From contig JABFRW010000125.1 in assembly GCA_013140805.1 (NCBI GenBank), forward strand, positions 1-35,131: a stretch of 35,131 nt of DNA. Direction: 5' to 3'. Source of the DNA: Candidatus Eisenbacteria bacterium. Its GTDB lineage: Bacteria > Eisenbacteria > RBG-16-71-46. Under the pieces are notes generated by a model. It made no database searches. It was not told the DNA's origin and was given only the letters and a program-made list of their open reading frames with translations. The first letter of the stretch is position 1. Each line of letters begins with the position of its first letter. This document shows positions 1,002-35,131 of this stretch, piece by piece. A program made the translations under genes and the position numbers.

Positions 1002-1790
1002 ATGCGTCGACTTTCTTCTCTCGCAGCATTGATCGCGCTGTCTGCCTCGCTCGCCGTCGGTTGTGGTCAGCAGGCCCAGCAGGCCGCGGACACTTCGAGC
1101 GCCGACAGCTTGCTGGCCTCGAACCCGATCGAATCACCGCCGCCGGGCGACATCACGCCGCAGACCGATTTCGAGCAGACGCCGGAATCGCAGACGCCCG
1201 TGAGCTCGACGCCGAGCAGCACCCGGCCGGTGTCCAAGCCCAAGCCCAGGCCGACCGAGCCGGCTCCCCGGTCGGAGCCCGGCGTCTCGATCGCGACCGG
1301 CACTCCGCTCAAGGTCGCGTTCACGGCCAAGCTCACGTCCGAGACTGCGGTGGCCGGAGATGCATGGAGCGGCACGTTGAGCGACCCGGTGACGCTCGGT
1401 GACAACGCGGCACTGCCGGCCGGTACGGTGGTGCACGGCGTGGTGGTCGGTGCCAAGCCGGCGCAGAAGGGTGATCGCGCGGTGCTGGTGCTGGCGATGA
1501 CCTCGCTCGAGGTGAATGGCCGCAGCTACGATGTGAGCGGTCACGCCGACAGCCTGATCGCGGGCTCGACGCGCGGACGCAACGTGGGCGCGGTGGCCGG
1601 CGGCGCGGCGGCGGGTGCGCTGATCGGCAAGGCGGTCGGCGGCAGCGGCAAGGGCGCTCTGATCGGCGGACTGATCGGCGGCGCGGCGGCGACCGGAGCG
1701 GTCGCGGCCTCGAAGGGCTACCAGGTCGAGGTGAAAGAGGGTGCTCAGGTCGTGTTCACCGTCACCCAGAGCGCCAGGATCAAGTTGTAG
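1002..1790 (+). CDS. Glycine-zipper lipoprotein of unknown function
   Basis: 262 residues. A lipoprotein signal peptide ends in LAVGC (Cys21), so the protein should be exported and lipid-anchored. A Ser/Thr/Pro-rich linker (about 22-95) follows, ending in a PKPKPRPTEPAP stretch that could span the periplasm or peptidoglycan. A compact beta-rich segment comes next (about 98-185, beginning TGTPLKVAFTAKLTSE, with an AGTVVHGVVVGAKPAQKGDR stretch). A long Gly/Ala glycine zipper runs from about 195 to 235, with GALIGKAVGG and GALIGGLIGGAAA repeats, the kind of motif that packs helices in membranes. The start is fixed by AAAGGAG 9 bases upstream, and a strong terminator follows the stop. Glycine zippers occur in many envelope lipoproteins, so a structural or membrane-associated role is the most that can be said. 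Confidence 0.8.
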   Translation: MRRLSSLAALIALSASLAVGCGQQAQQAADTSSADSLLASNPIESPPPGDITPQTDFEQTPESQTPVSSTPSSTRPVSKPKPRPTEPAPRSEPGVSIATGTPLKVAFTAKLTSETAVAGDAWSGTLSDPVTLGDNAALPAGTVVHGVVVGAKPAQKGDRAVLVLAMTSLEVNGRSYDVSGHADSLIAGSTRGRNVGAVAGGAAAGALIGKAVGGSGKGALIGGLIGGAAATGAVAASKGYQVEVKEGAQVVFTVTQSARIKL

Positions 1791-1812
1791 TTCGTACTCG
1801 ATCGAAGTCCCG

Positions 1813-1850
1813 AAGCGGGGCGGAGCGGCTCTCCGCCCCGCTTCTGCTTT
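1813..1850 (+). terminator. Intrinsic terminator after the glycine-zipper lipoprotein
   Basis: A perfect 13-bp stem (1813-1825 with 1831-1843) closes a 5-base loop CGGCT and is followed by CTGCTTTT. It lies 23 bases past the stop at 1790, which isolates this gene from the next one. Confidence 0.8.
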
Positions 1851-2069
1851 TCCGCTCCCTGGCATTCAGCGTTGAACCGCGCCGGACTGCGGCTACAACC
1901 CGTTGAACGATCGGGTACACCCGCGCCCCACATCGCCGCCCGCCGCTCGTTGCGGTACAACGAGTTACGGCATCGCGATGCGCGGCACGGGTGCTGCTCA
2001 TGCTGTGAGTGTCCCTGACCCCGCACTCTCGCATGGCCCGCTCGCGGGCTCCGATTGGAGGCACGCCTC

Positions 2070-3005
2070 ATGAAATCACACCGCATTCTCCTCGCGGCGC
2101 CATTGCTGCTCCTGATGCTCGCCGGCTGCAGCAAGAACAGCGATCCGACCGATCCGACTTCGAACAGCGGAACCTCGCAGGATCAGGTCGAACTCACCCA
2201 GCAGGTCACGACGCAGCCGGACTACGCCGAAGACGACGGCATCGCAACGTCCGAGGAGCAGGTCGAGGCATCGTTCGCGTTGTCGCTGGCCGCCGACCTC
2301 GACGTCACCGCGGGCTCTCACCCGGTGCGCTTCTGGCGAGTGATCCGCGACATCGATCGGCGCTTCGAGTTCGAGTTCTCGGACTTCGACTCGGCCGGCA
2401 ATCCGAACCGCGCGATCGTCACGGTTCACAAGCTGCTGCGCGGCAACTTCAACGTGCTCTACGCCGACAGCGTCGGGCCCGACAGCGTGGTGCGCAACTT
2501 GGTGCACAAGCCGCTCGAGGATCGCTGGGTGCGCAAGCTCGTGCTCCATCGCATGCGCCTTCCGAATCACGTGCGCTCGGTGTGGCGCATCGTCGGCACC
2601 AGTGGCGTTCAGGTGACTTCGAAGGACGCGACCACCGACATCGTGAGCCTGCGCGTTCAGCAGGGTGCGCTCGACACCACGATCACGAATCCGCTCGAGC
2701 TGTTCCGTCTGCGCCAGATCATCCAGCTCGACACCGGGGCCGATGTGACGCTGACCGTGACCACCACGCGAGCCGACGACATCGTGCTGCTCTACTCGCG
2801 GGCCGGCCGCGCTCGCTTCCACAACAACGGCGACCTCACGTACTCGGGCACCTGGCGCACCGCGAGCTTCGCGGGTCTACGTCACGCCGGCATCAATGCG
2901 CTCTCGCATGCGACGCTGTTCGACCCGGCCGCTGCGTATGATTCGCAGGCGTGGATCCTGCCGTACCTGGTGCGCCCGAACGATCCGGGCGACTTCGTCG
3001 AGTAA
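2070..3005 (+). CDS. Predicted lipoprotein, unknown function
   Basis: 311 residues from ATG 2070. This start is preferred over an in-frame TTG at 2055 because GGAGG sits 8 bases upstream. The signal peptide ends in LMLAGC (Cys20), so it should be an exported, lipid-anchored protein. An acidic, low-complexity linker (SKNSDPTDPTS, then Gln/Glu/Asp-rich) leads into a mostly beta-rich body from about residue 70 to the end. That body has Arg-rich strands (RFWRVIRDIDRRFEFEFSDF), a TLTVTTTRADDIVLLYSR stretch and a final YSGTWRTASF element. I recognise no catalytic motif or named domain. It may be monocistronic: a terminator lies between it and the preceding gene, and the NYN gene converges on it from the other side. 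Being a gene is secure; function is unknown. Confidence 0.75.
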   Translation: MKSHRILLAAPLLLLMLAGCSKNSDPTDPTSNSGTSQDQVELTQQVTTQPDYAEDDGIATSEEQVEASFALSLAADLDVTAGSHPVRFWRVIRDIDRRFEFEFSDFDSAGNPNRAIVTVHKLLRGNFNVLYADSVGPDSVVRNLVHKPLEDRWVRKLVLHRMRLPNHVRSVWRIVGTSGVQVTSKDATTDIVSLRVQQGALDTTITNPLELFRLRQIIQLDTGADVTLTVTTTRADDIVLLYSRAGRARFHNNGDLTYSGTWRTASFAGLRHAGINALSHATLFDPAAAYDSQAWILPYLVRPNDPGDFVE

Positions 3006-3011
3006 CGAGCG

Positions 3012-3026
3012 CCGGCCTCACGCCGG
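3012..3026. terminator. Short hairpin between convergent genes
   Basis: CCGGC and GCCGG pair around a 5-base loop between the stop at 3005 and the convergent NYN gene's stop at 3058. There is no T-run on either strand, so it is at best a weak terminator. Confidence 0.3.
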
Positions 3027-12147: not shown

Positions 12148-14862
12148 CTAGAGAACCGGCTCGCCGGTTTCGGCGGCATGCGGCGGCACCTTGCGCTCCA
12201 CCGACTTCACCTTGAAGCGCCGCACCGCGCCTTCGATCTCGAGTTCCACCTCGTCGCCGAGGTTCTTGCCGAGCAACGAGCGTCCCACCACCGACTGGAA
12301 CGAGATCACGTGATCGCCGTGGTGCTGCTCGCCTTCACCGAGGATCCAGTACATGGCACTGCCGCCTTCACTTTCGAGCATCACCTCGGTGCCGAGTCCG
12401 ACCACGCCGGGCTTGCTCGGCGCATCGTCGACGAACCGCGCCCGCGAAAGCCGCAACTGCAGGTTCGCGACCTGCTGGCTGATGGTCTGTTGCTTGAGCT
12501 TGGCCGAGTGGTACTCGGCGTTCTCCTTCAAATCGCCCAGTTCGCGGGCCTTCTGGATCGCGGCCGGAATCGTGGTGCGCAGCTCGCGCTCCATGCGCTC
12601 CAGCTCCTTCTTCTGTCGTTCCCAGGTCGCGCGGGTCATCACCGACAGCTCGGTGTCGGTCTGCTGGCCGACCTGCGCGAACATGCGCTGCGTGCTCTGT
12701 TCGCGCGAGGCGCGCACCGCGGCGACCGCATCGTGCAGGCCGAGCCGGGCCGCGATCTCGAGCGCCGGGAACAGGTACCGGTCGCTGGAGCGCCACTGGC
12801 GCAGCAGCACCGTGAGTCGCATGCGCTGCTCGTCACCGCACGGCTGGCCGGCGAGCATGCGGTCGAACAGGCCGCCGATCTCGATCCAGCCCAGCACCTT
12901 CTCCGCCGTCGAAGGTTTCGGACGCTCCTCGACCAGCGCGAGTGCCGACCACAGGATGCGCCAGCCGTCTTCGGGCGGCAGCTTCTTCGCGAGTTCGATT
13001 TCGACCATGCGAAGTGCCGCGGCCGGATACCGCGCGGCGTGGTCGAGCAGCGTGCGACGCAACGCCTCGCGGCCGGCCTCGTCGAGGTGCTCGCGATATC
13101 CCTGTGCGCGCTCGCGCACCGCGGCATAGCGCGAGTCGAGCGCGGACAGCAACGCATCGGCCTCGACGCCGGCGGCGTGCGAAGCTTCGAGCAGCGCGAT
13201 CTGTTCGTCCTCGCCCGACAGGTCGGTGATCGAGAGGCCCTGCTCCCACAACGTCTTGAGCACTTCGATCCACTCCGGTGAGCGGGTCGAGTTCCAGCGC
13301 GCGAAGTAGAGCCCGGCTCGCGCGCGATCCGCGCGTTCGCCCTCGGGGTCCTGCATCGCACGCATCACATAGCGACCGAAACGCTTGGTGAGCGCGAGTT
13401 CGGCGCCCGGGTGCTGCGTGAGGAACTTCTTCAAGGTGATGAGGTTCGAGCGCACCGGCTTGCGGGGCTCGAGCGGCGGCAGCGGCACTTCGACCATCGC
13501 GCCGATCTCGGCATCTTCGTCGGCCAGTGCCCACACCTGCTCGAAGGCGCGCGAATGGTCGATGCGCACGTCCTTCTCGGCCGCGCTCTTGGCCTTGCGG
13601 AAGAACGAGGTCCACTCGGTGGCCGGCAGCAGCTGATATCCGACCAGGAACACCTTGAGGCCTTGCGCGTCGGCTTTGCCGCCCAGCGCCTTGAGCGAAC
13701 GCACCATCACTTCCGCGTGCTCTTCGTCGAACATCCGCTTGAGCTGATCGGGACTCTGCAACAGCAACAGGCGCAGATCTCCTTCGTCGAGCGGCGTCAG
13801 GGTGCGGCGTGCGGCGGCGTAAGGCATGCGGTGCCCGCGCGACTTGGGAAAGTCGAGCACCACGACGTCGGCGTCGTTCGACACCACTCGCCCGGCGCCG
13901 AACGAACCGTGGAACACCGAGCGGCCGGCCGGAAGTGCGGCGAGCAGGTCGTAGCGCTCGAGCGCCGCCAGCGCCGAAATCTCGGAGTCCTCGAGCCCGC
14001 TGTCGGCGATCACGCCCGCGGCATCCGGAAGGCTGCGCCCCGGTCCCTCGCGCAGCGCGGTCACGAGCGGCTCGCGAAAGTTCTTCGCCGCTTTCTCGCC
14101 GCCGGCTTCGGCCGCGGCCGCCAGCGCTTTGCGCAGCGGATCGACCAGCTCGGTCGCGCGACCGGCCGCGACCAGACGCGGCAGGGCGATGTCCGCCAGC
14201 TGGCGCGATTCCTTGAACGCCCCTTGAAGCGCGAGCGTCGGCAATACCTGGACGAGTCGCGCGAGCCCTTCGACATCGTCGTGCTCCGCGAACTCGAGCG
14301 CGGCCTCTTCGAGCCCGCCGTAGCGCTTCTCGAGTGCGAACCGCGGCGTCAGCTCGGCGAGCAGCACGCGGCGCTCGGCCGCTTCGCCCACGTCGAGCAG
14401 GCGGACCGCGAGCTGAAGCCCGAGATCCAGATCATCGGGCAGGATTGCCCAGGCGCGGCGCAGCGCCTGCACGCGATCCGGCTCTTTCCCGATCGCTTCG
14501 TGTGCGCGCACCAGCAATCGCGCGCCGGCGCCGGTTTCCTCGAGACCCAGCGACCGATCGGAGATCGCGGCGAGCGGCTCCCAGCTCTTGGCCTGAGCGA
14601 GTTTCTCGCCGAGTGCCAGCAGCGTCTGGTTCGCGCGCTCGATCTCGCCGTGATGCGCGCAGACCGCGGCGAGCAGGTAGTCGACCGCGTGCGTCGCGCT
14701 TCCCTGTCGCAGCCGCGAAGCGCATTCGTCACGGGCGGAAACGAGCGCACCCGTCTCGGCTGCATTTGCTGCGAGCGACTCGAGACGCTCGCGTGAGGCG
14801 GGTGACAGATCGCCACACGCATCGCCGCGCAGGATGACCGAAAGTTCGTCGCGAAGAGCCAT
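12148..14862 (-). CDS. GreA/GreB-family transcript cleavage factor with long N-terminal extension
   Basis: 904 residues from ATG 14862; a longer start at 14931 is possible, and neither has an ideal ribosome binding site. Only the last ~165 residues are GreA. They include the coiled coil (about 738-815), with the tip motif LGDLKENAEYHSAK that carries the Asp and Glu needed to stimulate RNA cleavage in the polymerase secondary channel, and the FKBP-like C-terminal domain (about 825-900). The preceding ~730 residues are Leu/Ala/Glu-rich helical repeats. These are interrupted at about 310-360 by a small beta segment (SVFHGSFGAGRVV...VVVLDFP...GHRMPY) resembling the CarD/TRCF Tudor-like RNA-polymerase-binding fold. 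Ordinary GreA has about 158 residues. Chlamydiae and spirochaetes have similarly long forms, and the order here resembles the chlamydial one. Confidence 0.88.
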   Translation of the reverse strand: MALRDELSVILRGDACGDLSPASRERLESLAANAAETGALVSARDECASRLRQGSATHAVDYLLAAVCAHHGEIERANQTLLALGEKLAQAKSWEPLAAISDRSLGLEETGAGARLLVRAHEAIGKEPDRVQALRRAWAILPDDLDLGLQLAVRLLDVGEAAERRVLLAELTPRFALEKRYGGLEEAALEFAEHDDVEGLARLVQVLPTLALQGAFKESRQLADIALPRLVAAGRATELVDPLRKALAAAAEAGGEKAAKNFREPLVTALREGPGRSLPDAAGVIADSGLEDSEISALAALERYDLLAALPAGRSVFHGSFGAGRVVSNDADVVVLDFPKSRGHRMPYAAARRTLTPLDEGDLRLLLLQSPDQLKRMFDEEHAEVMVRSLKALGGKADAQGLKVFLVGYQLLPATEWTSFFRKAKSAAEKDVRIDHSRAFEQVWALADEDAEIGAMVEVPLPPLEPRKPVRSNLITLKKFLTQHPGAELALTKRFGRYVMRAMQDPEGERADRARAGLYFARWNSTRSPEWIEVLKTLWEQGLSITDLSGEDEQIALLEASHAAGVEADALLSALDSRYAAVRERAQGYREHLDEAGREALRRTLLDHAARYPAAALRMVEIELAKKLPPEDGWRILWSALALVEERPKPSTAEKVLGWIEIGGLFDRMLAGQPCGDEQRMRLTVLLRQWRSSDRYLFPALEIAARLGLHDAVAAVRASREQSTQRMFAQVGQQTDTELSVMTRATWERQKKELERMERELRTTIPAAIQKARELGDLKENAEYHSAKLKQQTISQQVANLQLRLSRARFVDDAPSKPGVVGLGTEVMLESEGGSAMYWILGEGEQHHGDHVISFQSVVGRSLLGKNLGDEVELEIEGAVRRFKVKSVERKVPPHAAETGEPVL

Positions 14863-14951
14863 GCGCTCCGGAGGACTCGGGGAGCTCGCGCCCGCGGCGA
14901 CCACCGCCGCCCATGCGCGAGGGGCGAACATACTGCGTCATGCGCTGCCCC

Positions 14952-14987: not shown

Positions 14988-15542
14988 ATGAAGATTTACA
15001 CCCGTACCGGAGACGATGGCACCACCGGCTTGCTGGGCGCCGGGCGTGTTTCGAAGGCGGAGCCCCGCGTCGAAGCCTATGGCAGTGTCGACGAATTGAA
15101 CGCGCTGCTGGGTCTGGTTCGAGTGGCCGACACCGGGCGCGCTTTCGAAGCCGTGGTGACGGCCGCGCAGGAGTGCCTGTTCACGCTCGGCGCGCGGCTC
15201 GCGGCGTCCGGGCCCGAAATGCTCGCGCGGCTGGCGCCGCTCGAGGAGCGGGATATCGAGGCGCTGGAGCGCGAGATCGACCGCCTCGACGGCACGCTGC
15301 CGCCGCTCACTCAGTTCGTGCTGCCGGGCGGATCGGCGCTGGCGGCGCAACTTCATCATGCGCGAACGGTGTGCCGGCGGGCCGAGCGGCGCGTGGTGGC
15401 GCTGAGCGGTGTTTCGAGCGCCGAGCCGATCGTCGTCCGCTACCTGAACCGGCTCGCCGACCTGCTGTTCGTGATGGCGCGCGCCGCCAATCAGTCCGCC
15501 GGAGTCTCGGACACGCCCTGGACTCCGCGGCCCCGGTCTTGA
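14988..15542 (+). CDS. Cob(I)alamin adenosyltransferase, PduO/MMAB type
   Basis: 184 residues. It transfers the adenosyl group of ATP to cob(I)alamin to make coenzyme B12 (EC 2.5.1.17). The N-terminal ATP-binding signature is present as KIYTRTGDDGTTGLLGAGRV, followed by YGSVDELNALLG and the C-terminal helix RYLNRLADLLFVMARAAN; these contain the conserved Arg, Asp and Asn residues of the PduO family. Length is normal for a stand-alone enzyme, and it should work in the cytosol as a trimer. No Shine-Dalgarno sequence precedes the ATG; a -10-like TAGACT ends 7 bases before it, suggesting a leaderless mRNA. No other cobalamin gene is nearby, so its client (for example methylmalonyl-CoA mutase) must lie elsewhere. 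Confidence 0.93.
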   Translation: MKIYTRTGDDGTTGLLGAGRVSKAEPRVEAYGSVDELNALLGLVRVADTGRAFEAVVTAAQECLFTLGARLAASGPEMLARLAPLEERDIEALEREIDRLDGTLPPLTQFVLPGGSALAAQLHHARTVCRRAERRVVALSGVSSAEPIVVRYLNRLADLLFVMARAANQSAGVSDTPWTPRPRS

Positions 15543-17671: not shown

Positions 17672-20386
17672 CTACGGCGTCGCCACTCCGATCGCCCCCG
17701 CCGGGCGTACGGCTTCGACTTCGCGTCCCGCCTCGAGTGCGCGCTTGATGCGGGCGCGCGACTCGAGCAGATGCGCGCGCGTGTAGTCGCCCATCGCGCC
17801 CTCGCCGGCCAGCGCACGCGTCGCCCGCGCATCGATGCGCGCGAGCTGCAGACGCGCCAGGCTGCGCGCGTCGTCGGGTGTGCCGGGGATTCCGCCGACC
17901 ACCATCTGCGCGAGTCGATCGATATAGACGCGCTGGATGTCGCGCCGTGTGTTCGGGCCATCGAGTGCCCGCATCGCTGCCGCAGCACCGCCGCCGACCT
18001 CGCCCCACAGCGCCCGCGTGAGCCGATCGAAGTAATCGCTCATGCGAAACGCGTCCGGCGAACGGCTCTCGGCTTCGCGCAGCCGCGCCAGCAGCATCGG
18101 CTGCGTCAGCCCGTTCAACAGCCCGGTCTGAATCGCGAGCGCCTTGTCGTTCAGGTTGTAGTCGAGCCGCGGCCCGGTCCACACCCCGAAGTTGTCGTCG
18201 ACGCCCCAGTGCATCCAGCGATCCGGCGCGAGGCGATTGAGCAGCTTCGGTGACAGATTGAACGAGTTCGCCGCGAAGCCGCGCTCCGCGATGAAGTCGA
18301 GCGCCTCGCGCTGCTTGGCGGCCGGCACGAGCTGCAGCGGGTCCCTGGAATCCGGCTGGCCGCGGTGATTGCGCGACTGATACTGGCCGCCGACGTACTT
18401 GACGCCGATGCCGAGCGCGATTCCGTACTGCTCGAGCAGGCCATCGACGGCGCGACGCAGCACCGGGTACTCGCCCTCGTCTCCGAGGATGCGGGCCTCC
18501 AGCGCATCGTTCGACCAGATGTCGGTCACCCAGCCGGCGCGATCCTTCGCGAACGACAGCGGATCGTCGCCGAGGTCCCAGATGTTCGAGCGCGGATCGA
18601 GCGCGAACGGCCCATAGGTGTCGGGGTCCGGCGTGTAGACGTGGCCGGGCAGATTCGACTCGTCGGCGATCTTCTTCACGACCGCATAGTCGGCATCTGC
18701 GCTCGCCTGGCCCGACGGCGTGTAGCCGTAGCGGATCATCCATACGTCGGCGGTGCCCGCGACGCTGCCGTAGTAGTCGCCCTGCTTGGTGCGATCGCGC
18801 GAAACGTTCGGCGTCGCGTAGTCCATCACCGATGCCATCATGCCGTTGCCGCGCGACCAGGTCGAGTCGTTCAGCTTGTCGTAGGGCGTCGCAGTGCTGG
18901 CGCGGAAGTTGTGCGTGAGGCCGAGCGCGTGCCCGACTTCGTGGAGCACCGTGTGCGTCAGCATCTCGCCAACGAACCGCTCGTGGATCGGGCCTCCGGC
19001 CGCGATGCTGCCATCCATGACCGCCGCGAGATTCGCGAGCGTCATGCCGACCGAACCGCCGGCGGCTGCGTCGCAACGATGATCGAGCGGCAGTCGCGAC
19101 TCGGCTTCGCGCAGCATCGGCAGTTCGAACGTGCTCGGCGAGCCGGTCAGGTCGCGGTAGATGCGCCACCGGCGCTGCACGATCGAAGCCTCGAACAGGA
19201 TGTCGGAGTCGAGGATCTCGCCGCTGCGCGGGTCGATGCGCGACGGTCCGATTGCGCCGAACGACGGCTCGGACGACGTGATCCAGCGGATGGTGCTGTA
19301 GCGAATGTCGCCCGGATCGTAGTCGGGGTCATCCGCGGGGGCTTCCTTGGCGATGATCGCGTTCTTGAACCCCGCCGCCTCGAATGCCTTCTGCCAGCCC
19401 TCGATGCCGGCCTTCACATACGGCCGGTACTTCTCGGGAATCGTGCGATCGATGTAGTAGACGATCGGCTTGACCGGCTCCGACAGCGCCGCCGTCGGGT
19501 CCTTCTTCTCGAGCCGCCAGCGCGTGATGTAGCGCCGCCAGAAGTGCTCCTGATCGTCGCGGCTGAAGTCCTTCACCGCGTTCAGGAAGTAACCGGTGCG
19601 ATCGTCGGCGAGCCGCGGCGTCATCGGAACGTCGGGCAGCTTCGAGAACGAGTAGTGCATCGTCACGCCGACGTAGCGGTCGTCGGGCACCGTGTTGAGG
19701 TTCAAGTTCTGCCGGTCGTTCGGCGTGTAGGTGAGCATCGCCTCGAACTCGACGTTCTCCGGATACGCCTTTGCGAGGGTCACCGCCGAGCGTTCCTTGT
19801 CGAAGCGGAACGTGCGGGCAGGCCCCTGGCGCAGGAACTCGCTCATGTCGCTGATGTCGCTGACCAGGAACGGCGCCAGGTCGACCAGGAGCGCCTTGCT
19901 CGAATCGTGGACGCTCTCGATCTTGAGCGATGCGATCGCCGAGTTTCCGAACGACAGGTCCTTGGCCCTCTCGATCGCGCTGCCGCTCGGGGCCACGAAG
20001 CGCATGTTCTTCTCCATCACCAGCACGCGATCGCCGGTGCGATGGAACTCGATCATGCGGTCGTTGAAGATCGAGAGCCCGCCGAGCACGAAGTCGCGCC
20101 CGATGCCGCGCGCGATGCTCCAGATGCCGAGCACCGGCTGGTCGAGCTGATCGGCCCGGATCTCCATGTAGAGGTTCTCGCGCTTCTGATAGAGCGTGAA
20201 GAGCCCCTTCTTGACCTCGGTGTCCTTGGTGAGCTTTTTCCAGTCACCGTACGGCTTGTCGGCCGCAGCGGCAGCCGCGTCCGAGGCGCCCTTCTTGGGC
20301 TTGGGAGCTGCGTGGCCGAGCGACGGCAGCAGCGCGATGGCAAGCGCGAGCGCGAGGGCGCTACGCAGGGAGTAGCGGTACGTCAT
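17672..20386 (-). CDS. Exported zinc metalloprotease, DUF5117/DUF4953 family (copy 1)
   Basis: 904 residues. A Sec signal peptide (cleavage about GHA/AP, residue 26) is followed by a Lys/Ala-rich linker and a DUF5118-like segment. A large N-terminal domain (DUF5117-like, about 80-290) carries VLGIWSIARGIGRDFVLGG. The catalytic domain (DUF4953-like) has the zinc motif HEVGHALGLTHNF (His482, Glu483, His486 and a third His three residues on), preceded by YSTIRWITSSEPSFGAIGPS and followed by SVMDYATPN, the Met-turn expected of a metzincin. A helical C-terminal region ends the protein. It should be a periplasmic or secreted peptidase; the substrate is unknown. The ATG has GGAGG 9 bases upstream. 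It is closely similar throughout to the gene at 21334-24087, a clear duplication. Confidence 0.9.
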   Translation of the reverse strand: MTYRYSLRSALALALAIALLPSLGHAAPKPKKGASDAAAAAADKPYGDWKKLTKDTEVKKGLFTLYQKRENLYMEIRADQLDQPVLGIWSIARGIGRDFVLGGLSIFNDRMIEFHRTGDRVLVMEKNMRFVAPSGSAIERAKDLSFGNSAIASLKIESVHDSSKALLVDLAPFLVSDISDMSEFLRQGPARTFRFDKERSAVTLAKAYPENVEFEAMLTYTPNDRQNLNLNTVPDDRYVGVTMHYSFSKLPDVPMTPRLADDRTGYFLNAVKDFSRDDQEHFWRRYITRWRLEKKDPTAALSEPVKPIVYYIDRTIPEKYRPYVKAGIEGWQKAFEAAGFKNAIIAKEAPADDPDYDPGDIRYSTIRWITSSEPSFGAIGPSRIDPRSGEILDSDILFEASIVQRRWRIYRDLTGSPSTFELPMLREAESRLPLDHRCDAAAGGSVGMTLANLAAVMDGSIAAGGPIHERFVGEMLTHTVLHEVGHALGLTHNFRASTATPYDKLNDSTWSRGNGMMASVMDYATPNVSRDRTKQGDYYGSVAGTADVWMIRYGYTPSGQASADADYAVVKKIADESNLPGHVYTPDPDTYGPFALDPRSNIWDLGDDPLSFAKDRAGWVTDIWSNDALEARILGDEGEYPVLRRAVDGLLEQYGIALGIGVKYVGGQYQSRNHRGQPDSRDPLQLVPAAKQREALDFIAERGFAANSFNLSPKLLNRLAPDRWMHWGVDDNFGVWTGPRLDYNLNDKALAIQTGLLNGLTQPMLLARLREAESRSPDAFRMSDYFDRLTRALWGEVGGGAAAAMRALDGPNTRRDIQRVYIDRLAQMVVGGIPGTPDDARSLARLQLARIDARATRALAGEGAMGDYTRAHLLESRARIKRALEAGREVEAVRPAGAIGVATP

Positions 20387-21333: not shown

Positions 21334-24087
21334 TTACTGCGCAGCCCCTGAAGAAGTTCCACCGGCGGCGTCCGCGCCAATTGCTGACGCGCCCCGGACA
21401 CTGTCCGCCGAGCGTGTCGCATCCATCGCGCGCTTGATCCGGGCGCGCGACTCGAGCAGGTGGGCGCGGGTGTAATCGCCCATGGGAGCCTCACTTGCGA
21501 GCTGGCGGGTGCAGCGCTGGTCGATCCGAGACAACTGCAGCCGGGCAAGCGCCCGGGCGTCGTCGGGAGCGCCGGCCACGGAACCGACCATCAGCCCCGC
21601 CAGGCGGTCGACGTAGGCCCGCTGGACGTCACGGCGGGTGCTGGTGCCGTCCAGCGCCTTGAGCGCCGCCGGGGCGCCACCGGCCACTTCGCCCCACAGC
21701 ATGCGGGTCATGCGGTCGAAGTAGTCGCTCATGCGAAACGCGTCCGCCGAGCGCCCCTCGGCCTCGCGCATGCGCAGCAGCAGCCGCGGCTCGAGCAGCT
21801 CGGTGAGCAGTGCGCTCTGGATCGAGAACGCCTTGGCGCCCAGGTCGTAGTCGTATCGATACGGGCCCGAGAATCCGTTGCCGATTCCCCAGTGCACCCA
21901 GCGATCCTGCCCAACCTTGGAGAGCAGCCCGGAGGGAATCGCGAACGCATCGGCCGCGAACGCGCGGGTGCCGAGGAATTCGAGCGCCTCGCGCTGCGTG
22001 GCGGCCGGGATCAGCGTGAGTGGATCGACGCCACCCTCCTGCCCGCGACGTGTCCGCGAGGCGTACTGGCCGCCCAGGTACTTGACCGCGAGTCCGAGTG
22101 CGATCGAGTACTGGCCGAGCGTGGTGTCGAGCGCGCGACGCAGCGTCGGGTAGTCGCCGTTGGGGCCGACCACGCGCTCCTCGAGCTTGGGGTTCTTCCA
22201 CAGCGACGCCACGTAGGCGGCGCGATCCTTCGCGAATGCGAGCGGATCGGTACCAAGGTCCCAGATGTTCACGCGCGGATCGAGCGCGTCATCGGGGTAC
22301 GCGTCCTGATCGGCGCCGTACTCGTTGCCCGGCAACGCCGACTCGTCCGCGATCTTGCGCGCGAAGACGTAGTCCTCGTCGGAGTTCGCGGCACCGGACG
22401 GCGTGTAGGCGTAGCGGATCTGCCACATGTCGCAGGTGCCGATCGTGGTCGTGTAGTAGTGGCCCTGCTTCGAGCGATCCGAGCTGATGTTCGGCGAGGG
22501 GTACTCCATTACGGAGCCCACGAGGCCTTTGGTGTCGGTCCAGCCCAGATCGTTCAGCTTGTCGTTCGGCGTCGCGGTGCTGGAGCGAAAGTTGTGCGTG
22601 AGGCCCAGGCTGTGTCCGACCTCGTGCATGGTCGTCCACACGATCGCCTCGCCCAGGTATTCCTCGGGCACCGGCGTTCCGGGCGGCATCAGGCCGTCGA
22701 GCAGCATGGTGAGGCTCACCAGCGAGCCGGCGTCGATCATGCCCTCGCCGAGCGCACAGCTGCGCTCGAGCGGCAGGAACGACGGCAACGCGGCGCGCAT
22801 CGCCTTCTGCGGCGCCACCATCGCACCGATCGCTTCGGGGCCCGCCCAGCGCCGGTAGTTGTTGCGGAACCCCTGAATGAACGACGCCTCGAACAGGATG
22901 TCGGCATCGAGGATCTCGCCGGTGCGAGGATCCACGCGCGAGGGTCCGATCGCGCCGAACGACGGCACCGACGAAGTGATCCAGCGGATCGTGCTGTAGC
23001 GCACATCCTCGGCATCCCAGGTGGAATCGTCCGGCGCGTCCGGCGCCACGATGGCGTTCTTGTAGCCCGCCGCTTCGAACGCCTTCTGCCAGTTCTCGAC
23101 GCCTTTGCGGACGAACGGGCGGTACTCCTTCGGAATGGTGTGGTCGAGATAGAACGTGATCGGCTTCACCACCTCCGAGACCGGCGCGTTCGGATCCTTC
23201 TTCTCGAGCCGCCAGCGATTGACGAAGCGCACCCAGAAGTTCTCGGACTCGTCACGGCCGAAGTCCTTGACCACGGTGAGGAACTGTCCGGTGCGCGGAT
23301 CCGCGAAGCGCGGCGTCATCGGAGTGGCCGGCAGCTTCGAGAACGAGTAGTGCACTGCGATCGGCAGATAGCGATCGTCCGACGGCGTCTCGAGACCGAG
23401 TCCGGTGCGATCCGACGGCGAGAACGTGAGTGCGGCCTCGATCTCGAAGTTGTCGGGGAACACCTTGGTGCTGGTGATCGCGGAACGTTCCTTGTCGAAC
23501 CGGAACGGCTTGTTGTTGAACGAGCTCTTCAGATACTCGGTCATGTCGGAAACGTCGCTGAGCAGGAAGTCGCCGAAGTTCACGAGCAGCGCCTTGGTCG
23601 AATCGTGCTCGCTCTCGATCTTGAGCGACGCGATGACCGAGCTGCCGATCGACAGGTCGACCGCCTTCGACATCGGTGAACCGGCGGGCGCCCTGTAGCG
23701 CGTGTTCTTCTCGACCACGAAGATGTGATCGCCTTCGCGATGGAACTCGAGCAGCCGGTCGTTGAGCGGCAGCCCGCCGAGCACGAAGTTCTGCCCGATG
23801 CCGCGCGCGAGGCTGAAGATGCCGAGCACCGGCTGGTCGAGCTGGCTCGGCTGGATCTCCAGCCACAGGCTCTCGCGCTTGCGCCACACGTTGAAGTAGC
23901 CCTTCTGAACCGTGGCGTCCTTGGTGGTCTTCTTCCAGTCCGTGAACGGCTTGTCCTTGTCGGCCGCGGCTGCCGCCTCGGCGGGCTTGCCGCCCTTGGG
24001 TGGCTTGGGCTTCGCGGAAGCGATCGGTGCGAGCAGCACCAGCAGCGCGAGGAGGGCGAGAGCGCGAGTGAGCAGGCGATGCGACAT
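21334..24087 (-). CDS. Exported zinc metalloprotease, DUF5117/DUF4953 family (copy 2)
   Basis: 917 residues, paralogous along its whole length to the protein encoded at 17672-20386. A Sec signal peptide (cleavage about ASA/KP, residue 25) leads into a Lys/Pro/Ala linker, then the DUF5117-like domain with VLGIFSLARGIGQNFVLGG. The metzincin-like catalytic centre HEVGHSLGLTHNF follows (His488, Glu489, His492), and after it SVMEYPSPN in place of the other copy's SVMDYATPN. The C-terminal third is rich in Arg/Ala helices and ends in a Ser/Ala-rich tail. It should act outside the cytoplasm on peptides or proteins. The ATG has GAGG about 10 bases upstream. A clear terminator follows the gene, so the two proteases and efp are probably three separate transcripts. 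Confidence 0.9.
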   Translation of the reverse strand: MSHRLLTRALALLALLVLLAPIASAKPKPPKGGKPAEAAAAADKDKPFTDWKKTTKDATVQKGYFNVWRKRESLWLEIQPSQLDQPVLGIFSLARGIGQNFVLGGLPLNDRLLEFHREGDHIFVVEKNTRYRAPAGSPMSKAVDLSIGSSVIASLKIESEHDSTKALLVNFGDFLLSDVSDMTEYLKSSFNNKPFRFDKERSAITSTKVFPDNFEIEAALTFSPSDRTGLGLETPSDDRYLPIAVHYSFSKLPATPMTPRFADPRTGQFLTVVKDFGRDESENFWVRFVNRWRLEKKDPNAPVSEVVKPITFYLDHTIPKEYRPFVRKGVENWQKAFEAAGYKNAIVAPDAPDDSTWDAEDVRYSTIRWITSSVPSFGAIGPSRVDPRTGEILDADILFEASFIQGFRNNYRRWAGPEAIGAMVAPQKAMRAALPSFLPLERSCALGEGMIDAGSLVSLTMLLDGLMPPGTPVPEEYLGEAIVWTTMHEVGHSLGLTHNFRSSTATPNDKLNDLGWTDTKGLVGSVMEYPSPNISSDRSKQGHYYTTTIGTCDMWQIRYAYTPSGAANSDEDYVFARKIADESALPGNEYGADQDAYPDDALDPRVNIWDLGTDPLAFAKDRAAYVASLWKNPKLEERVVGPNGDYPTLRRALDTTLGQYSIALGLAVKYLGGQYASRTRRGQEGGVDPLTLIPAATQREALEFLGTRAFAADAFAIPSGLLSKVGQDRWVHWGIGNGFSGPYRYDYDLGAKAFSIQSALLTELLEPRLLLRMREAEGRSADAFRMSDYFDRMTRMLWGEVAGGAPAALKALDGTSTRRDVQRAYVDRLAGLMVGSVAGAPDDARALARLQLSRIDQRCTRQLASEAPMGDYTRAHLLESRARIKRAMDATRSADSVRGASAIGADAAGGTSSGAAQ

Positions 24088-25283: not shown

Positions 25284-28073
25284 ATGAAGCTGCTCGAGAC
25301 CTCGGTCTACTTGGGCCCGAGCATCCACGCGTTGTTCCCGGTGATCCGCTTCACGCTCGATCTCGAGGAACTGGAGCAGTGGCCGACGCTCAAGCTGGGG
25401 CGCGGCTTCATCGACGGGTTGCTCGCGGCGCTGCCGGGGCTTCACGAGCACGGCTGCTCTTACGAGACACCGGGCGGCTTTGTGCGGCGTATGACCGAAG
25501 ACGAAGGCACGTGGCTCGGCCACGTGCTCGAGCACTGCGCGATCGAGATCCAGAACCTGGCCGGCGCCCACGTCACGTTCGGCAAGACGCGCTCGGCCGA
25601 TGGCCCCGGTCGCTACCACGTGGTCTATCAATATGAAGAGGCCGAGGTCGGACTCGAGGCCGGCAAGCTGGCGCTCGCGCTCCTGCGTTCGCTGCTGCCG
25701 GCGCCGCTCAAGCCGAAGGAACCGGCAGAATTCGAGTTCGCCACCGCACGCGACGACTTCATCCGCTTCTCGCAGCGCCGCGCACTCGGGCCTTCGACCG
25801 CGTCACTGGTGCGCGCGGCCGAAGAGCGCGACATCCCGTGGCTGCGCCTGAACCATCACAGCCTGATCCAGTTCGGGCACGGCCGATATCAGCGTCGCAT
25901 CCAGGCCACCATCACGAGCGAGACGCGACACATCGCGGTCGAGATCGCCTCCGACAAGGAAGAGACCAATCGCATCCTGAGCGATCTCGGCCTGCCGGTG
26001 CCGCGGCAGGAGCTGGTGTATTCCGAGGAAGAGTGCGCCAAGTCGGCGCAGAAGATCGGATTCCCGGTCGCGGTCAAGCCCTACAACGGCAATCACGGCC
26101 GCGGCGTGTCGCTCAACCTCGCCGACGGCCCGCACGTGCGCGAGGCGTTCCACAAGGCGCGCGAACACAGCCGGGGCGTGGTGGTCGAGAGCTTCATCCA
26201 GGGCGACGATCACCGCATGCTGGTGGTCGACGGCCAATTGATCGCGGTCGCCAAGCGCATCCCCGGCCACGTGGTCGGCGACGGCACCCACACCGTCGCG
26301 CAACTGGTCGAGATCGTGAACCGGGATCCGCGCCGCGGAATCGGCCACGAGAAGATCCTCACCCGCCTCGAGCTGGACCATCAGGCCGAGCGCTGCCTGC
26401 GCGATCTCGGCTACACGCCCGACTCGGTTCCGCCTGCCGGTGAACGCGTCGCGCTGCGCCTCACCGGCAACCTCTCGACCGGCGGCACGGCACTCGACGT
26501 CACCGACGTGGTGCACCCCGACAACGCCGAAATGGCGATCCGCGCGGTCAAGGCGATCGGACTCGACGTCGGCGGCGTCGACTTCATCACCCGCGACATC
26601 AGCCTGTCGTACAAAGAAGACGGTGGCGCGATCTGCGAGCTCAACGCGGCTCCCGGCTTCCGCATGCACGTCGCTCCCAGCGAGGGCACGCCGCGTGACG
26701 TCGCGGGCCCGGTCATGGACATGCTGTTCCCGCCCGGCACTCCGGTGCGCATTCCGATCGCGACGATCACGGGTACCAACGGCAAGACCACCACCGCACG
26801 CATGCTCGCGCATGTCTTCAAGCTCGCGGGCCATGTCGTGGGGCTCACCACCACCGACGGCGTCTACATCGACGGGCAGCTCACGGTGAAGGGCGACATG
26901 ACCGGCCCGGTCGCCGCCCGAATGGTGCTGCGCGATCCCGCGGTCGACGTGGCGGTGCTCGAATCGGCGCGCGGCGGCATCCTGCGCCGCGGCCTGGGCT
27001 ATCGGAAGTGCAACGTCGGCGCGGTGCTGAACATCAGCGCGGATCACCTGGGGTTGAAGGGCGTCGACACGCTCGAGCAGCTCGCCGAGGTCAAGCGCAT
27101 CGTCGTCGAAGTCGCGCAGGACACCGCGGTGCTGAACGCCGACGACCCCTACTGCCTGCGCATGGCCGATCACACCCGCGCCAAGCACCTGTGCTACGTC
27201 ACCATGAGCATCGACCACGCGCTGGTGCGCGAACACATCCGCGCCGGCGGGCGCGCGGTGGTGCTGGAGCCGGGGGCCGGCGGCAACATGATCGCGATCT
27301 ACGACCATCACGCGCACATCCCGCTGCTGTGGGCGCATCTGGTGCCGGCGACGCTCGAGGGCCGTGCCCTCCACAACGTACAGAACGCCATGTTCGCAGC
27401 GGCGCTCGCGTTCTCGATGGGCGTCAAGCTCGAAGGCATCCGCCAGGGGCTCCGCACCTTCGACACCACGTTCTTCCAGGCACCGGGTCGCACCAATGTG
27501 TACGACCAGCATCCGTTCCGCGTGATCCTCGACTACGGACACAACCCGGCCGCGGTGAGTGCCATGTGCGAGACGGTCGATCGGCTCGACGTGAAGGGAC
27601 GCCGCATCGTGGTGCTCGCAGCACCCGGCGATCGGCGCGACGAGGACATCGTGGCGATCGCGCGCACCGCCGCGCGACACTTCGATCACTACATCTGCCG
27701 CCGCGACGACGCTCTGCGCGGACGCGCGTCCGACGAGGTGCCGCGCATGCTGCGCGCCGCGCTGCTCGAAGCGGGCGTGCCGGCCGAGCAGGTCGAAGTG
27801 GTCGAGAAAGAATCGCCGGCGGTCGAACGTGCGCTGAGACTTGCGCGGCCCGGAGACCTGGTGCTGCTGTTCGGCGACGCGCTGCAGCGTACCTGGGATC
27901 AGGTCGTGGCGTTCGATCCGCAGGATGCCGAGCACCCACGCCCCGCCGGGCACGCGCCGGTGCGCGTGGCGCTGCCGCCGGCGCCGGATCTGGGGCGCGA
28001 GATGGGCGGCGCGATCATCCGCGACGAGCGTGGCGTGCGCCTCGCCGCGCGCGAACCCGAAGTCGCGGATTGA
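25284..28073 (+). CDS. cphA: Cyanophycin synthetase
   Basis: 929 residues, close to the usual CphA length. It makes cyanophycin from Asp and Arg without a ribosome, using two ATP-dependent active sites. The N-terminal domain (about 1-160) carries LETSVYLGPSIHALFPVIRF and WLGHVLEHCAIEIQNLAG. The ATP-grasp domain (about 200-480) carries FPVAVKPYNGNHGRGVS, VESFIQGDDHRMLVVDG and GAICELNAAPGFRMH; this site adds Asp. The Mur-ligase-like domain (about 490-890) has the P-loop GTNGKTTT (about 496-503), VLESARGGILRRGLGY and ILDYGHNPAAV; this site adds Arg. The ATG has GGAGG 6 bases upstream and lies 60 bases after cphB. The stop overlaps the start of the next gene by 4 bases. Confidence 0.96.
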   Translation: MKLLETSVYLGPSIHALFPVIRFTLDLEELEQWPTLKLGRGFIDGLLAALPGLHEHGCSYETPGGFVRRMTEDEGTWLGHVLEHCAIEIQNLAGAHVTFGKTRSADGPGRYHVVYQYEEAEVGLEAGKLALALLRSLLPAPLKPKEPAEFEFATARDDFIRFSQRRALGPSTASLVRAAEERDIPWLRLNHHSLIQFGHGRYQRRIQATITSETRHIAVEIASDKEETNRILSDLGLPVPRQELVYSEEECAKSAQKIGFPVAVKPYNGNHGRGVSLNLADGPHVREAFHKAREHSRGVVVESFIQGDDHRMLVVDGQLIAVAKRIPGHVVGDGTHTVAQLVEIVNRDPRRGIGHEKILTRLELDHQAERCLRDLGYTPDSVPPAGERVALRLTGNLSTGGTALDVTDVVHPDNAEMAIRAVKAIGLDVGGVDFITRDISLSYKEDGGAICELNAAPGFRMHVAPSEGTPRDVAGPVMDMLFPPGTPVRIPIATITGTNGKTTTARMLAHVFKLAGHVVGLTTTDGVYIDGQLTVKGDMTGPVAARMVLRDPAVDVAVLESARGGILRRGLGYRKCNVGAVLNISADHLGLKGVDTLEQLAEVKRIVVEVAQDTAVLNADDPYCLRMADHTRAKHLCYVTMSIDHALVREHIRAGGRAVVLEPGAGGNMIAIYDHHAHIPLLWAHLVPATLEGRALHNVQNAMFAAALAFSMGVKLEGIRQGLRTFDTTFFQAPGRTNVYDQHPFRVILDYGHNPAAVSAMCETVDRLDVKGRRIVVLAAPGDRRDEDIVAIARTAARHFDHYICRRDDALRGRASDEVPRMLRAALLEAGVPAEQVEVVEKESPAVERALRLARPGDLVLLFGDALQRTWDQVVAFDPQDAEHPRPAGHAPVRVALPPAPDLGREMGGAIIRDERGVRLAAREPEVAD

Positions 28074-30511: not shown

Positions 30512-31489
30512 ATGGAACGTCCCGCCTCCTATCGCCCGACCACCCGCGTGCTGACGGTGCTCGAGTTGCTGCAGACCCACGAGCGCATGAGTGGTCCCGA
30601 ACTGGCGCGGCGCCTCGGCGTGGATCCGCGTACGGCGCGCCGCTACATCACGCAGCTCGAAGCGCTCGGCATTCCGATCACGGCGGAACGCGGTCGCAAT
30701 GGCGCCTATGCGCTGGTCGCCGGCTTCAAGCTGCCCCCCATGATGTTCACAGAGGACGAAGCGCTCGCGGTCGCGGTCGGACTGCTGGCCGCGCGCGATC
30801 TGGGGCTCGCGAGTGCGGCACCCGCCGTCGCGAGCGCGCAGGCCAAGCTCGAACGCGTGATGCCCGCAACACTGCGTCATCGGGTGCGCGCGGTCGACGA
30901 GACCGTGGCGCTCGATCTGGCGCGCGCGACCCCGAGTGCCGACAACGCGGCGCTCGTCACACTGACCGAAGCGGCGCGCGAGCGTCGTCGGGTGCGGATG
31001 CGCTATCGCGCCGCCGCGGGTGAGGTCACCGAGCGCGAGTTCGATCCCTACGGACTCGCGTATCGCGGAGGCTGCTGGTACGTGGTCGGGCATTGCCATC
31101 TGCGGCTCGGATTGCGCTCGTTTCGACTCGATCGGGTGGTGACGGCGGCGGCCGGCGAGTCGCGCTTCGAGCGCCCGGCGGACTTCGACGCGCTCGAACA
31201 TCTGACCTTCGCGTTCGCGACCATTCCGCGCGCGTTCGGAGTCGAGCTGCTGCTCGAGACCGACCTCGCGACCGCGCGGGCCCAGCACGCCCACACGCTC
31301 GGTGCGCTCGAGACGGTCGCCAGGGGCGTGCGACTGCGCGGACAGGTCGACGACCTGGCGTGGCTCGCGCGCGAGTTGTCGCGATGGTCGTTCGAGTTCC
31401 GGATCCTGCGGCCGGCGGCGTTGCGGGTGGCGCTGCGGGATCACGCGCGCACGCTGCGCGCGCGGGCCGCTAGGGGCCGGTCGCGGTGA
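30512..31489 (+). CDS. WYL-domain transcriptional regulator, YafY type
   Basis: 325 residues. The N-terminal HTH_11-type winged helix is visible (about 8-65): VLELLQTHERMSGPELARRL, DPRTARRYITQLEALGIPI and ERGRNGAYAL. The WYL domain (about 145-220) follows, with RRVRMRYRAA, EFDPYGLAYRGGCWYVVGHC and the end motif SFRLDRV. A C-terminal WCX-like region closes the protein. WYL domains bind nucleotide or nucleic-acid ligands and control the DNA-binding head. No Shine-Dalgarno sequence is present; a TAGTCT lies 8 bases before the ATG. It diverges from the DUF1579-like gene, its likeliest target, and its last 20 bases overlap the 3' end of the convergent CHAT protease gene. Confidence 0.9.
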   Translation: MERPASYRPTTRVLTVLELLQTHERMSGPELARRLGVDPRTARRYITQLEALGIPITAERGRNGAYALVAGFKLPPMMFTEDEALAVAVGLLAARDLGLASAAPAVASAQAKLERVMPATLRHRVRAVDETVALDLARATPSADNAALVTLTEAARERRRVRMRYRAAAGEVTEREFDPYGLAYRGGCWYVVGHCHLRLGLRSFRLDRVVTAAAGESRFERPADFDALEHLTFAFATIPRAFGVELLLETDLATARAQHAHTLGALETVARGVRLRGQVDDLAWLARELSRWSFEFRILRPAALRVALRDHARTLRARAARGRSR

Positions 31490-34400: not shown

Positions 34401-34643
34401 GCGCCCTCGGGCGAGCAGTTCGAGCGCAAGCGCGAGCGAGTTCGAGTCCGCGGGAGTCGCGCGCTCGGCGCGCGCGAGTGCGAGGTGCGCAAGGCTCTCG
34501 GCGGGCGCCCACTGCCGGAGTCCCTGCAGTCGCGCGGACTCGGCGAGCTCTGCGTCTGGTGCCGCGCGTGATGCGCCCGGCGGGCACAACGCGACCCCTG
34601 CCATGACACACAATAACTTTGCGATGCTCAGGATTCGGCGCAT
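31470..34643 (-). CDS. Exported TPR / CHAT-domain caspase-like protease
   Basis: 1057 residues from ATG 34643 (GGAG 9 bases upstream). A signal peptide (MRRILSIAKLL..., cleavage about SRA/AP, residue 27) precedes ~650 residues of helical TPR-like repeats rich in Leu/Ala/Arg, such as LLRAAETWQAVGAAGA and SLSSLEKNRGDMAQSVEWLE. The CHAT domain occupies about 690-1057, with IHVVSGPLDDLPWLALPV, the catalytic His motif LLHVATHGVV (His867) and the catalytic Cys motif VVLSACHSGAG (Cys964). It ends in HPFYWAAFTATGP, the standard CHAT C-terminus. CHAT proteins are caspase/separase-like cysteine peptidases. With a signal peptide this one should act outside the cytoplasm. A second CHAT gene lies 35 bases upstream on the same strand. 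Confidence 0.9.
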   Translation of the reverse strand: MRRILSIAKLLCVMAGVALCPPGASRAAPDAELAESARLQGLRQWAPAESLAHLALARAERATPADSNSLALALELLARGRQTQGLYRDTLVLEWGTRLVRIREASISRDPLALADAELLLSRILGGYERYGEAPSHLARARALRASRSAAIDSRSSDSLLAEVDLVSGQLLRRAGELANAEVELRRALTVHERFATSRTRLLGLVYSELGGVLVGLQRLDEAQPILLRAAETWQAVGAAGASQLAGTFGSLSSLEKNRGDMAQSVEWLERAVEASERLLGENARSTLIHRLNLGSRLIEFGDHVAARRRLEPLVTPLEALFGAGHSTTETARSMLGIACFADGDTVSALRYLAASLAAMENRPGNHAAGVAFALQWQAVILRDRGDLEGSRRAVELALEQCRPLGATEGPMRVDLELLKMSVLAKQGALTPLATEVAEVSALVDSFELTGTPVEARARVAQAIALRRLGAPDSAWKTALAADAMSRAQMAFNASRLPDRQALGLSVQWSEALPQLTDLVRTRDPGAAAIAWDRSQRWRGWWNRERELRRPPQGGLDTARTGAHARWVAAERHYAERIVSDADSMRHPSVSARLERARAAAEQAEGRYRATEARGGMPRPASEPRLDEILAHLAPDEALVAFAEAVDDTASRLVAFVAHGAPARVELVSLGPLRTARATSARWLRALSEPPSARASAAERELRVLGRACRERLWDPLAAVLADARTIHVVSGPLDDLPWLALPVGAREYLVDTNRTIGVIEAERDLLTPRAATSNGRAITFGGPAFDQAPATGAAPLLALASRGAANPCMPFPRLEALPAATAEALDVAATLGTGPDHALVLTGAEASEGSFKREAPGHTLLHVATHGVVLGDTCATAAPGRRGVGGLTATSSRTSKRRRPVAEPIAEADKPSPWLARRVWLAFAGANHAGESNDPDGNDGMLTAEEVVTLDLRGVEWVVLSACHSGAGADWSKEGALGMRRAFHLAGARTVIASHWSIEDQAAREWMRALYQARAAGALGGAEAVAKACRATLEARRQSRRTTHPFYWAAFTATGP

Positions 34644-34678
34644 TCGCCGCACTCCGCTCGAAGGACGGTGAGATTCGG

Positions 34679-35131
34679 CTACGGGCCGCTCGCGGTGAAC
34701 GCGGCCCAGTAGAACGGGTGCGTGGTGCGTTTGGACTTCCGGCGTGCGGCGAGCACCGTGCGGCTCGCCTGACGGAGCGCCTCGCCGGTCGATCGATGCG
34801 CGGAGTCGGGCCGCGCATAGAGCGCGCGCATCCAGTCGCGGGTCGATTCGTCGGCGACCGACCATTCGCTCGCGATCACGGTGCGAGCACCCGCCATGCG
34901 AAAGGCGCGGCGCATGCCGAGCGAGCCCTCGCGTGGCCACTCTTCGCCGAGTCCCGACTGACAGGCCGAGAGCACCACCCACTCCACTCCTCGCAGATCG
35001 AGTGCGGCGACTTCTTCGAGCGTCAGCAGTCCCTCGTTCTCGTCGGTGGCATTCGAGCGTGCCCCATTCGCGCCCGCGAGCGCCAGCCACACCTGCCGGC
35101 CCCGCAGCGAGGCGGCCGGCGGCGACGGCGC
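34679..35131 (-). CDS. CHAT-domain protease, C-terminal part, cut by window edge
   Basis: The frame is open for 151 codons from the right edge to the stop at 34679; the 5' part lies outside. It covers the last part of a CHAT domain, including VWLALAGANGA, LTLEEVAALDLRGVEWVV, the catalytic Cys motif LSACQSGLGEEW, MRRAFRMAGARTVIASEWSV and the terminal HPFYWAAFTASGP. The catalytic His lies beyond the window edge. It is very similar to the same region of the downstream protein (31470-34643), so the two genes are tandem paralogues, 35 bases apart and probably cotranscribed. Whether this copy also has TPR repeats and a signal peptide cannot be seen. Confidence 0.88.
   Translation of the reverse strand, partial: APSPPAASLRGRQVWLALAGANGARSNATDENEGLLTLEEVAALDLRGVEWVVLSACQSGLGEEWPREGSLGMRRAFRMAGARTVIASEWSVADESTRDWMRALYARPDSAHRSTGEALRQASRTVLAARRKSKRTTHPFYWAAFTASGP

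Follow-up and report, generated by a model that had tools for sequence, protein, structure and literature searches.

A 35,131-nucleotide stretch of the genome of a Candidatus Eisenbacteria bacterium (contig JABFRW010000125.1 of assembly GCA_013140805.1; the whole stretch is called the window below) carries a gene for a long form of the transcription factor GreA, in which a mostly helical extension with a small internal beta segment precedes a complete Gre factor. On balance, and with somewhat better than even confidence, we favor reading this long GreA as a two-point anti-arrest factor of RNA polymerase, in which a Tudor domain would sit on the beta lobe, an alpha-solenoid would serve as spacer, and the Gre coiled coil would enter the secondary channel. 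The fold, the homology, the conserved residues, the domain spacing, and the presence of a candidate RpoB motif were computed, and from these we infer binding and function. Long GreA proteins as such are already annotated (NCBIfam PRK14720 and PRK06330), one NCBIfam model calling the extension an "unknown domain," and the reading of the extension presented here is new; our searches of the open-licence literature found no paper on a Tudor domain in GreA.

The Gre factor and its helical extension

Both parts of a Gre factor were recovered above their curated Pfam cut-offs, with GreA_GreB_N at residues 741-809 (E 6.9e-17, 61.9 bits, cut-off 24.5) and GreA_GreB at residues 819-889 (E 4.5e-12, 46.2 bits, cut-off 26.9). 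A preliminary description of the window had placed a GreA with the acidic tip GDLKENAEY at the C-terminus, and the tip was indeed found there, at residues 776-784. Acidic residues at the tip of the coil drive transcript cleavage, and D777 and E780 of the source protein are conserved in 105 of the 106 Gre matches among 108 collected members, including the chlamydial-type protein L248. GreA and GreB structures were within the top five PDB matches of the whole predicted model (target template modeling [TM] score 0.75-0.80).

PF01272 occurs at a single place in the source genome, which is 96% complete, and profile searches with PF01272 and PF03449 found no second, short greA there. When 40 genomes of the same phylum, each at least 80% complete, were surveyed with PF03449, 33 matches were obtained in 32 genomes, 29 of them in open frames of 879-1230 codons; the other four (in G034, G037, G030, and G005) lie in shorter pieces, which we interpret as long forms truncated at contig ends. 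The remaining eight genomes gave no PF03449 match, and because three of them (G026, G029, and G032) belong to the same family and the G032 assembly consists of a single contig, real absence of the Gre coil is likely in that family. Five PF01272 matches above the cut-off fell outside long GreA in this phylum: four (L112-L115) align to the Gre C-terminal part only, without a coil, and the fifth is in G001, a genome in which PF03449 found no second coil. No coil-bearing Gre protein other than long GreA was found in the phylum. Genome G026, where no long GreA was found, contains a 1315-residue frame (locus L264, 543-4487) in which residues 824-899 weakly resemble Gre-C (13.7 bits).

AlphaFold2 modeling of the full protein from a 30-sequence alignment (mean predicted local distance difference test [pLDDT] 89.6, predicted TM score [pTM] 0.50) yielded helices over residues 1-309, strands at 315-318, 322-329, 333-338, 341-347, and 355-357, mostly helices up to approximately residue 730, and then the Gre fold; the extension is therefore helical almost throughout, as proposed earlier, and the beta segment at 310-360 is predicted with confidence. 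Residues 1-735, submitted without the GreA part, matched PRK14720 (E 5.9e-13) and PRK06330 (E 2.5e-9), which makes the extension homologous to theirs. Models of tetratricopeptide repeats (TPR) matched at most 5 of 30 relatives, the extension-core profile matched designed TPR proteins in the PDB, and the whole-model fold search of the PDB was dominated by TPR superhelices, Ctr9 and Ski3 among them, which we take as generic likenesses of the model. A separate upstream protein was rejected as an explanation: the fusion of extension and GreA is conserved in same-family relatives (53-63% identity), and the extension on its own already matches models of long GreA.

The internal Tudor-like domain and its candidate docking site

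To characterize the beta segment, 40 sequences from three phyla were aligned, and four positions proved invariant (H318, G324, F338, and L355). In scans of individual segments, 22 of the 40 matched PcrA_UvrD_tudor (PF21196; best E 9.3e-5), 19 matched DUF3553, and 4 matched the RapA Tudor. The aligned segment was matched by hhalign to the UvrD Tudors of the source phylum (27 sequences) with a probability of 96.3% (E 1.7e-9). In a control, just two of 22 windows along the protein matched this UvrD profile, 281-345 (90%) and 321-385 (41%), both of which overlap the segment; each of the remaining 20 gave less than 1%. UvrD/PcrA accounted for nine of ten PDB sequence matches at E ≤1. The structural model of the segment (pLDDT 92, pTM 0.78) retrieved six UvrD/PcrA Tudor chains as the first-ranked Foldseek hits (E 0.013-0.058), and the first three VIA-align ranks were again UvrD/PcrA (Z 7.6, 6.9, and 6.8), the top one being 7egt with a root-mean-square deviation of 1.1 Å over 47 of 47 residues, as for a Tudor-like fold. 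The title of PDB entry 7egs names the UvrD C-terminal domain together with the RNA polymerase lobe of E. coli. These comparisons of sequences and models point to a Tudor-like segment that is nearest to the UvrD/PcrA Tudors, before CarD/TRCF. The preliminary description had likened the segment to CarD/TRCF; its Tudor-like barrel stood, whereas the closest family by profile, structure, and residues proved to be PcrA/UvrD.

According to an excerpt of PMC5397179, H681, W684, K712, and L714 of PcrA are each required for RNA polymerase pulldown. Profile and PDB alignments place H318, F321, H344, and M346 of long GreA opposite these residues, the first being identical, F321 and M346 similar, and the lysine replaced by H344. 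The histidine at 318 is conserved in 101 of 103 copies of the Tudor (30/30 in the source phylum, 30/30 in spirochaetes, 22/22 in the phylum of genome G058, and 19/21 in copies from the wider survey). In the same order of groups, an aromatic residue occupies 321 in 28/30, 30/30, 18/22, and 17/21 copies, H, K, or R occupies 344 in 29/30, 30/30, 16/22, and 15/21, and M, L, I, F, or V occupies 346 in 30/30, 30/30, 22/22, and 20/21. The two kinds of Tudor resemble each other in predicted fold, in profile comparison, and in the residue pattern H-x-x-W/F-G-x-G ... F ... basic-x-hydrophobic; they differ in that the PcrA/UvrD Tudor is C-terminal in a helicase, whereas that of long GreA is internal, joined to Gre, and mostly has histidine for the lysine.

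The PcrA Tudor binds a hairpin of the beta SI1 insertion with the pattern [VIL]-D-x-x-T-G-E-[VIL]-[VILT] (PMC8318588, excerpt). RpoB of the source genome carries ADDATGEIL at this site. Twelve RpoB loci of the same family were fetched and nine examined; the eight that cover the site all contain TGEIL, and five follow the strict pattern with V first, the exceptions beginning with A (the source genome) or M (two). UvrD-type Tudors were detected in 26 of 26 genomes of the phylum at E ≤0.01 (24 above the cut-off), which leaves room for competition at the site. TraR, which occupies the secondary channel, contacts beta lobe-SI1 (PMC6970531, excerpt), which places the two presumed docking sites close together on the E. 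coli polymerase.

Proposed two-point docking and its alternatives

The distance between Tudor and Gre is nearly constant, with a median of 380 residues, a standard deviation of 10.7, and a range of 333-399 in the 99 members that have both domains. The length before the Tudor instead falls into classes near 15, 130, 210, and 297 residues (standard deviation 82; 85 members, truncated ones having been removed by hand). A constant spacer, together with the docking of both domain types on one enzyme in other proteins, suggests two-point docking. The Gre coiled coil would enter the secondary channel of RNA polymerase, where its acidic tip, judging from the intact motif and the family, would stimulate cleavage of backtracked RNA. 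The Tudor at 311-358 would dock on the beta-lobe hairpin that bears the TGE "helicase interaction motif," the helical spacer of about 380 residues would keep the two contacts at a fixed distance, and the factor might thereby be tethered to the elongating polymerase instead of visiting it transiently. The N-terminal TPR-like block, which varies stepwise in length, probably binds further partners. The double polymerase contact envisaged in the preliminary description fits this evidence.

We regard it as unlikely that the extension is a scaffold for partners other than the polymerase, for example UvrB, with only the Gre domain touching the polymerase. TPR-like repeats are generic partner-binding modules, the PcrA Tudor also binds UvrB (PMC8318588, excerpt), and UvrB of the source genome has a related motif, VDPLTGQVQ. 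In that motif, however, Q replaces the glutamate, and the near-constant spacing between Tudor and Gre is easier to explain if both ends rest on one rigid target. Co-purification of GreA with Borrelia RNA polymerase, for which the excerpt of PMC7237435 does not specify the binding part, also counts against this reading.

Less probable still, in our estimate, is that the barrel acts as an RNA polymerase interaction domain of the CarD/TRCF type on the beta1 region. Among the 40 segments, 13 matched CarD_TRCF_RID (PF02559), and the hhalign comparison with own-family TRCF domains (17 sequences) reached 53.6% (E 1.3e-4); CarD and Mfd were also found by VIA-align (Z 6.3 and 5.4, with RapA at 6.0). 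In 17 of 20 genomes of the family there is one PF02559 match each; all of these frames have 719-1251 codons, and a short, free-standing CarD was therefore not seen in these 20 genomes. The UvrD/PcrA profile nevertheless matches more segments, and better, the best E for CarD_TRCF_RID being 0.0011. With other hhalign settings the UvrD value stayed at 90-93% while that of TRCF dropped to 7-11% (93.3% and 7.5%, respectively, for the whole segment), and the UvrD and TRCF profiles matched each other at 11.9%. CarD and Mfd lie one to two Z units below the UvrD rows, and the key residues follow the PcrA pattern. The profile check proposed for CarD/TRCF gave no PF02559 match at E ≤1 in the source protein or its segment, the matches of relatives being weak; the one PF02559 match of the source genome lies in another protein (frame 1233). 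On profile and structure, CarD/TRCF was rejected as the closest family in favor of PcrA/UvrD. The PcrA Tudor docks on the beta SI1 motif instead of the beta1 site that Mfd and CarD use (PMC8318588 and PMC5397179, excerpts), and PcrA and Mfd do not compete for the polymerase (PMC8318588, excerpt).

Several observations weigh against two-point docking through a UvrD-type Tudor. The 65-residue segment of the source protein matched no Pfam family at E ≤1, so the homology is visible only through relatives. For a domain of this small size the Foldseek E values are weak (best 0.013), and VIA-align Z values below 8 may reflect a common barrel; unrelated barrels scored close to the UvrD rows (myosin X, Z 6.7; channel domains, 6.4), so Z alone would not decide, and it is the agreement of profile, fold, and residues that does. 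Position 321 is F in place of W684, and the mostly histidine residue at the PcrA lysine position weakens the parallel with PcrA. The RpoB motif of the source genome starts with A, outside the published pattern. None of the PF21196 matches in this genome reaches the cut-off (it is one of two such genomes), so that the normal occupant of the docking site is divergent here too. Seven of the 108 members have no clear Tudor, six with Gre in the same frame and one cut by a contig end. Finally, the pTM of 0.50 for the full model makes the relative placement of the domains unsure.

A broader set of ideas may be put forward tentatively, their joint truth being a possibility that we would not call probable. 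Long GreA would be a widespread, overlooked two-point elongation factor that uses a docking domain of the UvrD kind; backtracking driven by UvrD and reactivation driven by Gre would compete directly for one beta-lobe site; the solenoid of about 380 residues would act as a molecular ruler for the distance from SI1 to the secondary channel; and in two relatives that lack the Gre C-terminal domain (L254 and L257, see below) the extension would have taken over its anchoring role. A docking-type Tudor, a fixed spacer, and a wide distribution offer a testable mechanism for the rescue of arrested polymerase in bacteria without short GreA, and the Tudor assignment ties long GreA to UvrD and repair.

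Relatives, gene features, and neighboring genes

The spirochaetal long GreA (PRK14720, 906 residues compared with 904 here) is co-linear with the source protein, having an N-terminal block, a Tudor, a spacer, and a C-terminal GreA. The source protein scored 150.5 bits against a cut-off of 714, with a core identity of 16-23%, and is thus a relative, not a member, of PRK14720; L128, from the spirochaetal phylum itself, also fell below that cut-off (628.5). The Borrelia GreA that co-purified with the polymerase is presumably the long form. In the chlamydial "transcript cleavage factor/unknown domain fusion protein" (PRK06330, 718 residues), Tudor, spacer, and GreA follow in the same order and the N-terminal block is shorter; the source protein reached 90.8 bits against a cut-off of 697. 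L248, from a 1.0-Mb genome, scored 1241 bits for PRK06330, which identifies it as chlamydial in type, and matches the extension core; this protein has 705 residues and lacks part of the N-terminal block. The suggested kinship with chlamydial and spirochaetal long GreA is borne out by the homologous extensions, but the architecture is that of the full-length spirochaetal protein and not of the N-terminally shorter chlamydial one. Short GreA and GreB of E. coli and many other bacteria share the coiled coil with its acidic tip and the C-terminal domain, but have no extension.

A match to the source protein was obtained in 46 of the 59 genomes drawn. All 80 genomes searched in the phylum to which the Spirochaetaceae record L083 belongs matched the long-GreA profile, some, among the matches listed, through the Gre region only; the best-matching 30 loci were fetched, and all encode proteins of 892-922 residues with extension and Gre. 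In the phylum of G058, the Gre part was present in 23 of 26 genomes, 21 of them with frames of 729-801 codons, and profile matches start only at about residue 160-175 or later. A survey with a core profile (E ≤1e-6) gave matches in 78 of 339 genomes, 31 of 40 in the source phylum and 47 of 299 outside it; since the profile was built with spirochaetes and the G058 phylum included, matches among those were expected, and G171 and G318 duplicate contigs present in G076 and G086. Outside the source phylum, 28 genomes with 20 family labels reached 1e-20; of the 19 genomes with weaker matches, 15 matched through the TPR part only. Among 33 survey stretches (one of which, L264, was fetched for another reason), the core match is fused to a full Gre in 24; of these, L242, L243, L246, L247, and L256 have no clear Tudor and L253 is cut. 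Four TPR-only stretches (L255, L261, L262, and L263) were treated as chance repeats and left out of the member counts, as were L259 and L260, duplicates of spirochaetal contigs that had been counted before; L256 remained one of the 108 members despite having no Tudor match. Fusion of the extension core to Gre is found in many lineages besides spirochaetes and chlamydiae. A contig scan with the Gre tip as sole pattern gave short GreA except for L083 and is little informative on spread.

In L254 (genome G274, 1408-3015) the extension is fused to a Gre coil with an intact acidic tip, and no Gre C-terminal domain was found in the three downstream frames read; L257 is similar, with coil and tip and without the C-terminal domain, but beyond an in-frame stop. 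L244 (genome G259, 471-2672) encodes the extension, two tandem Tudors, and a degenerate coil without the acidic tip, and directly downstream lies an intact, separate greA of 159 residues; this locus is a natural separation of the extension and Gre parts. In L251 there are likewise two Tudors and a degenerate coil, and the fetched stretch contains no Gre C-domain. Such losses in a few relatives, and a review that calls the chlamydial protein "not functionally comparable" (PMC10995303, excerpt), would fit a long form that has become regulatory or structural, carries a Gre relic, and is no longer a cleavage factor. This reading is highly improbable: D777 and E780 persist almost throughout, and the source phylum has yielded no other coil-bearing Gre. 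The same review, from 2024, gives a length of 715 residues for the GreA of C. trachomatis and questions its comparability with that of E. coli (PMC10995303, excerpt); contrary to that doubt, the intact acidic tip argues that the chlamydial protein may work like GreA.

A quick tree of Gre domains (92 rows) put the long forms in groups separated by short GreA. In a more careful tree of 90 rows, from which the long-branched L252 and L256 had been removed, all 50 long rows fell on one side of a branch with support of 88/90, which is not decisive. The 40 short rows were every second of 79 from the tip-motif scan, ranked by likeness to the source family, so the sampling is biased. In a tree of the extension core (53 rows), the source phylum groups with two surveyed genomes (99/99) and the deep order is unsettled. 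A single origin of the fusion is neither shown nor rejected by these sequences.

The coordinates given previously for the gene were correct (Table 1). An alternative upstream start exists at 14931; an in-frame ATG equivalent to that at 14862 is present in 15 of 16 same-family relatives, the 16th being truncated at its N-terminus, and four relatives (L003, L004, L009, and L012) have no start upstream of it. The guanine-plus-cytosine (GC) fractions by codon position (0.75/0.46/0.85) are compatible with a real gene in a window of 68% GC.

Table 1. Location of long greA and of the segments of its product within the window
Feature	Position	Strand	Details or basis
Long greA gene	12148..14862	minus	904 aa; ATG at 14862, stop 12148-12150
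N-terminal TPR-like alpha-solenoid, residues 1-295, length lineage-dependent	13978..14862	minus	AlphaFold2 helices, TPR matches, N-terminal lengths
UvrD/PcrA-type Tudor-like barrel, residues 311-358	13789..13932	minus	Profile, fold, and residue comparison
Conserved segment, then helical repeats, residues 359-735 (Tudor-Gre spacer)	12658..13788	minus	AlphaFold2, spacing
Gre N-terminal coiled coil (PF03449), residues 741-809	12436..12642	minus	Pfam
Acidic tip GDLKENAEY (D777, E780), residues 776-784	12511..12537	minus	Sequence
Gre C-terminal domain (PF01272), residues 819-889	12196..12408	minus	Pfam

A cobalamin adenosyltransferase gene (14988-15542, plus strand) diverges from long greA across a gap of about 125 bases. 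Elsewhere in the window, two neighboring genes on the minus strand (17672-20386 and 21334-24087) encode paralogous met-zincin-like proteins (DUF4953/DUF5117/DUF5118), and a cyanophycin synthetase-like protein is encoded on the plus strand at 25284-28073. A 1206-residue TPR protein with a C-terminal CHAT domain (31470-35090, minus strand) adjoins a WYL/HTH regulator (30512-31489, plus strand).

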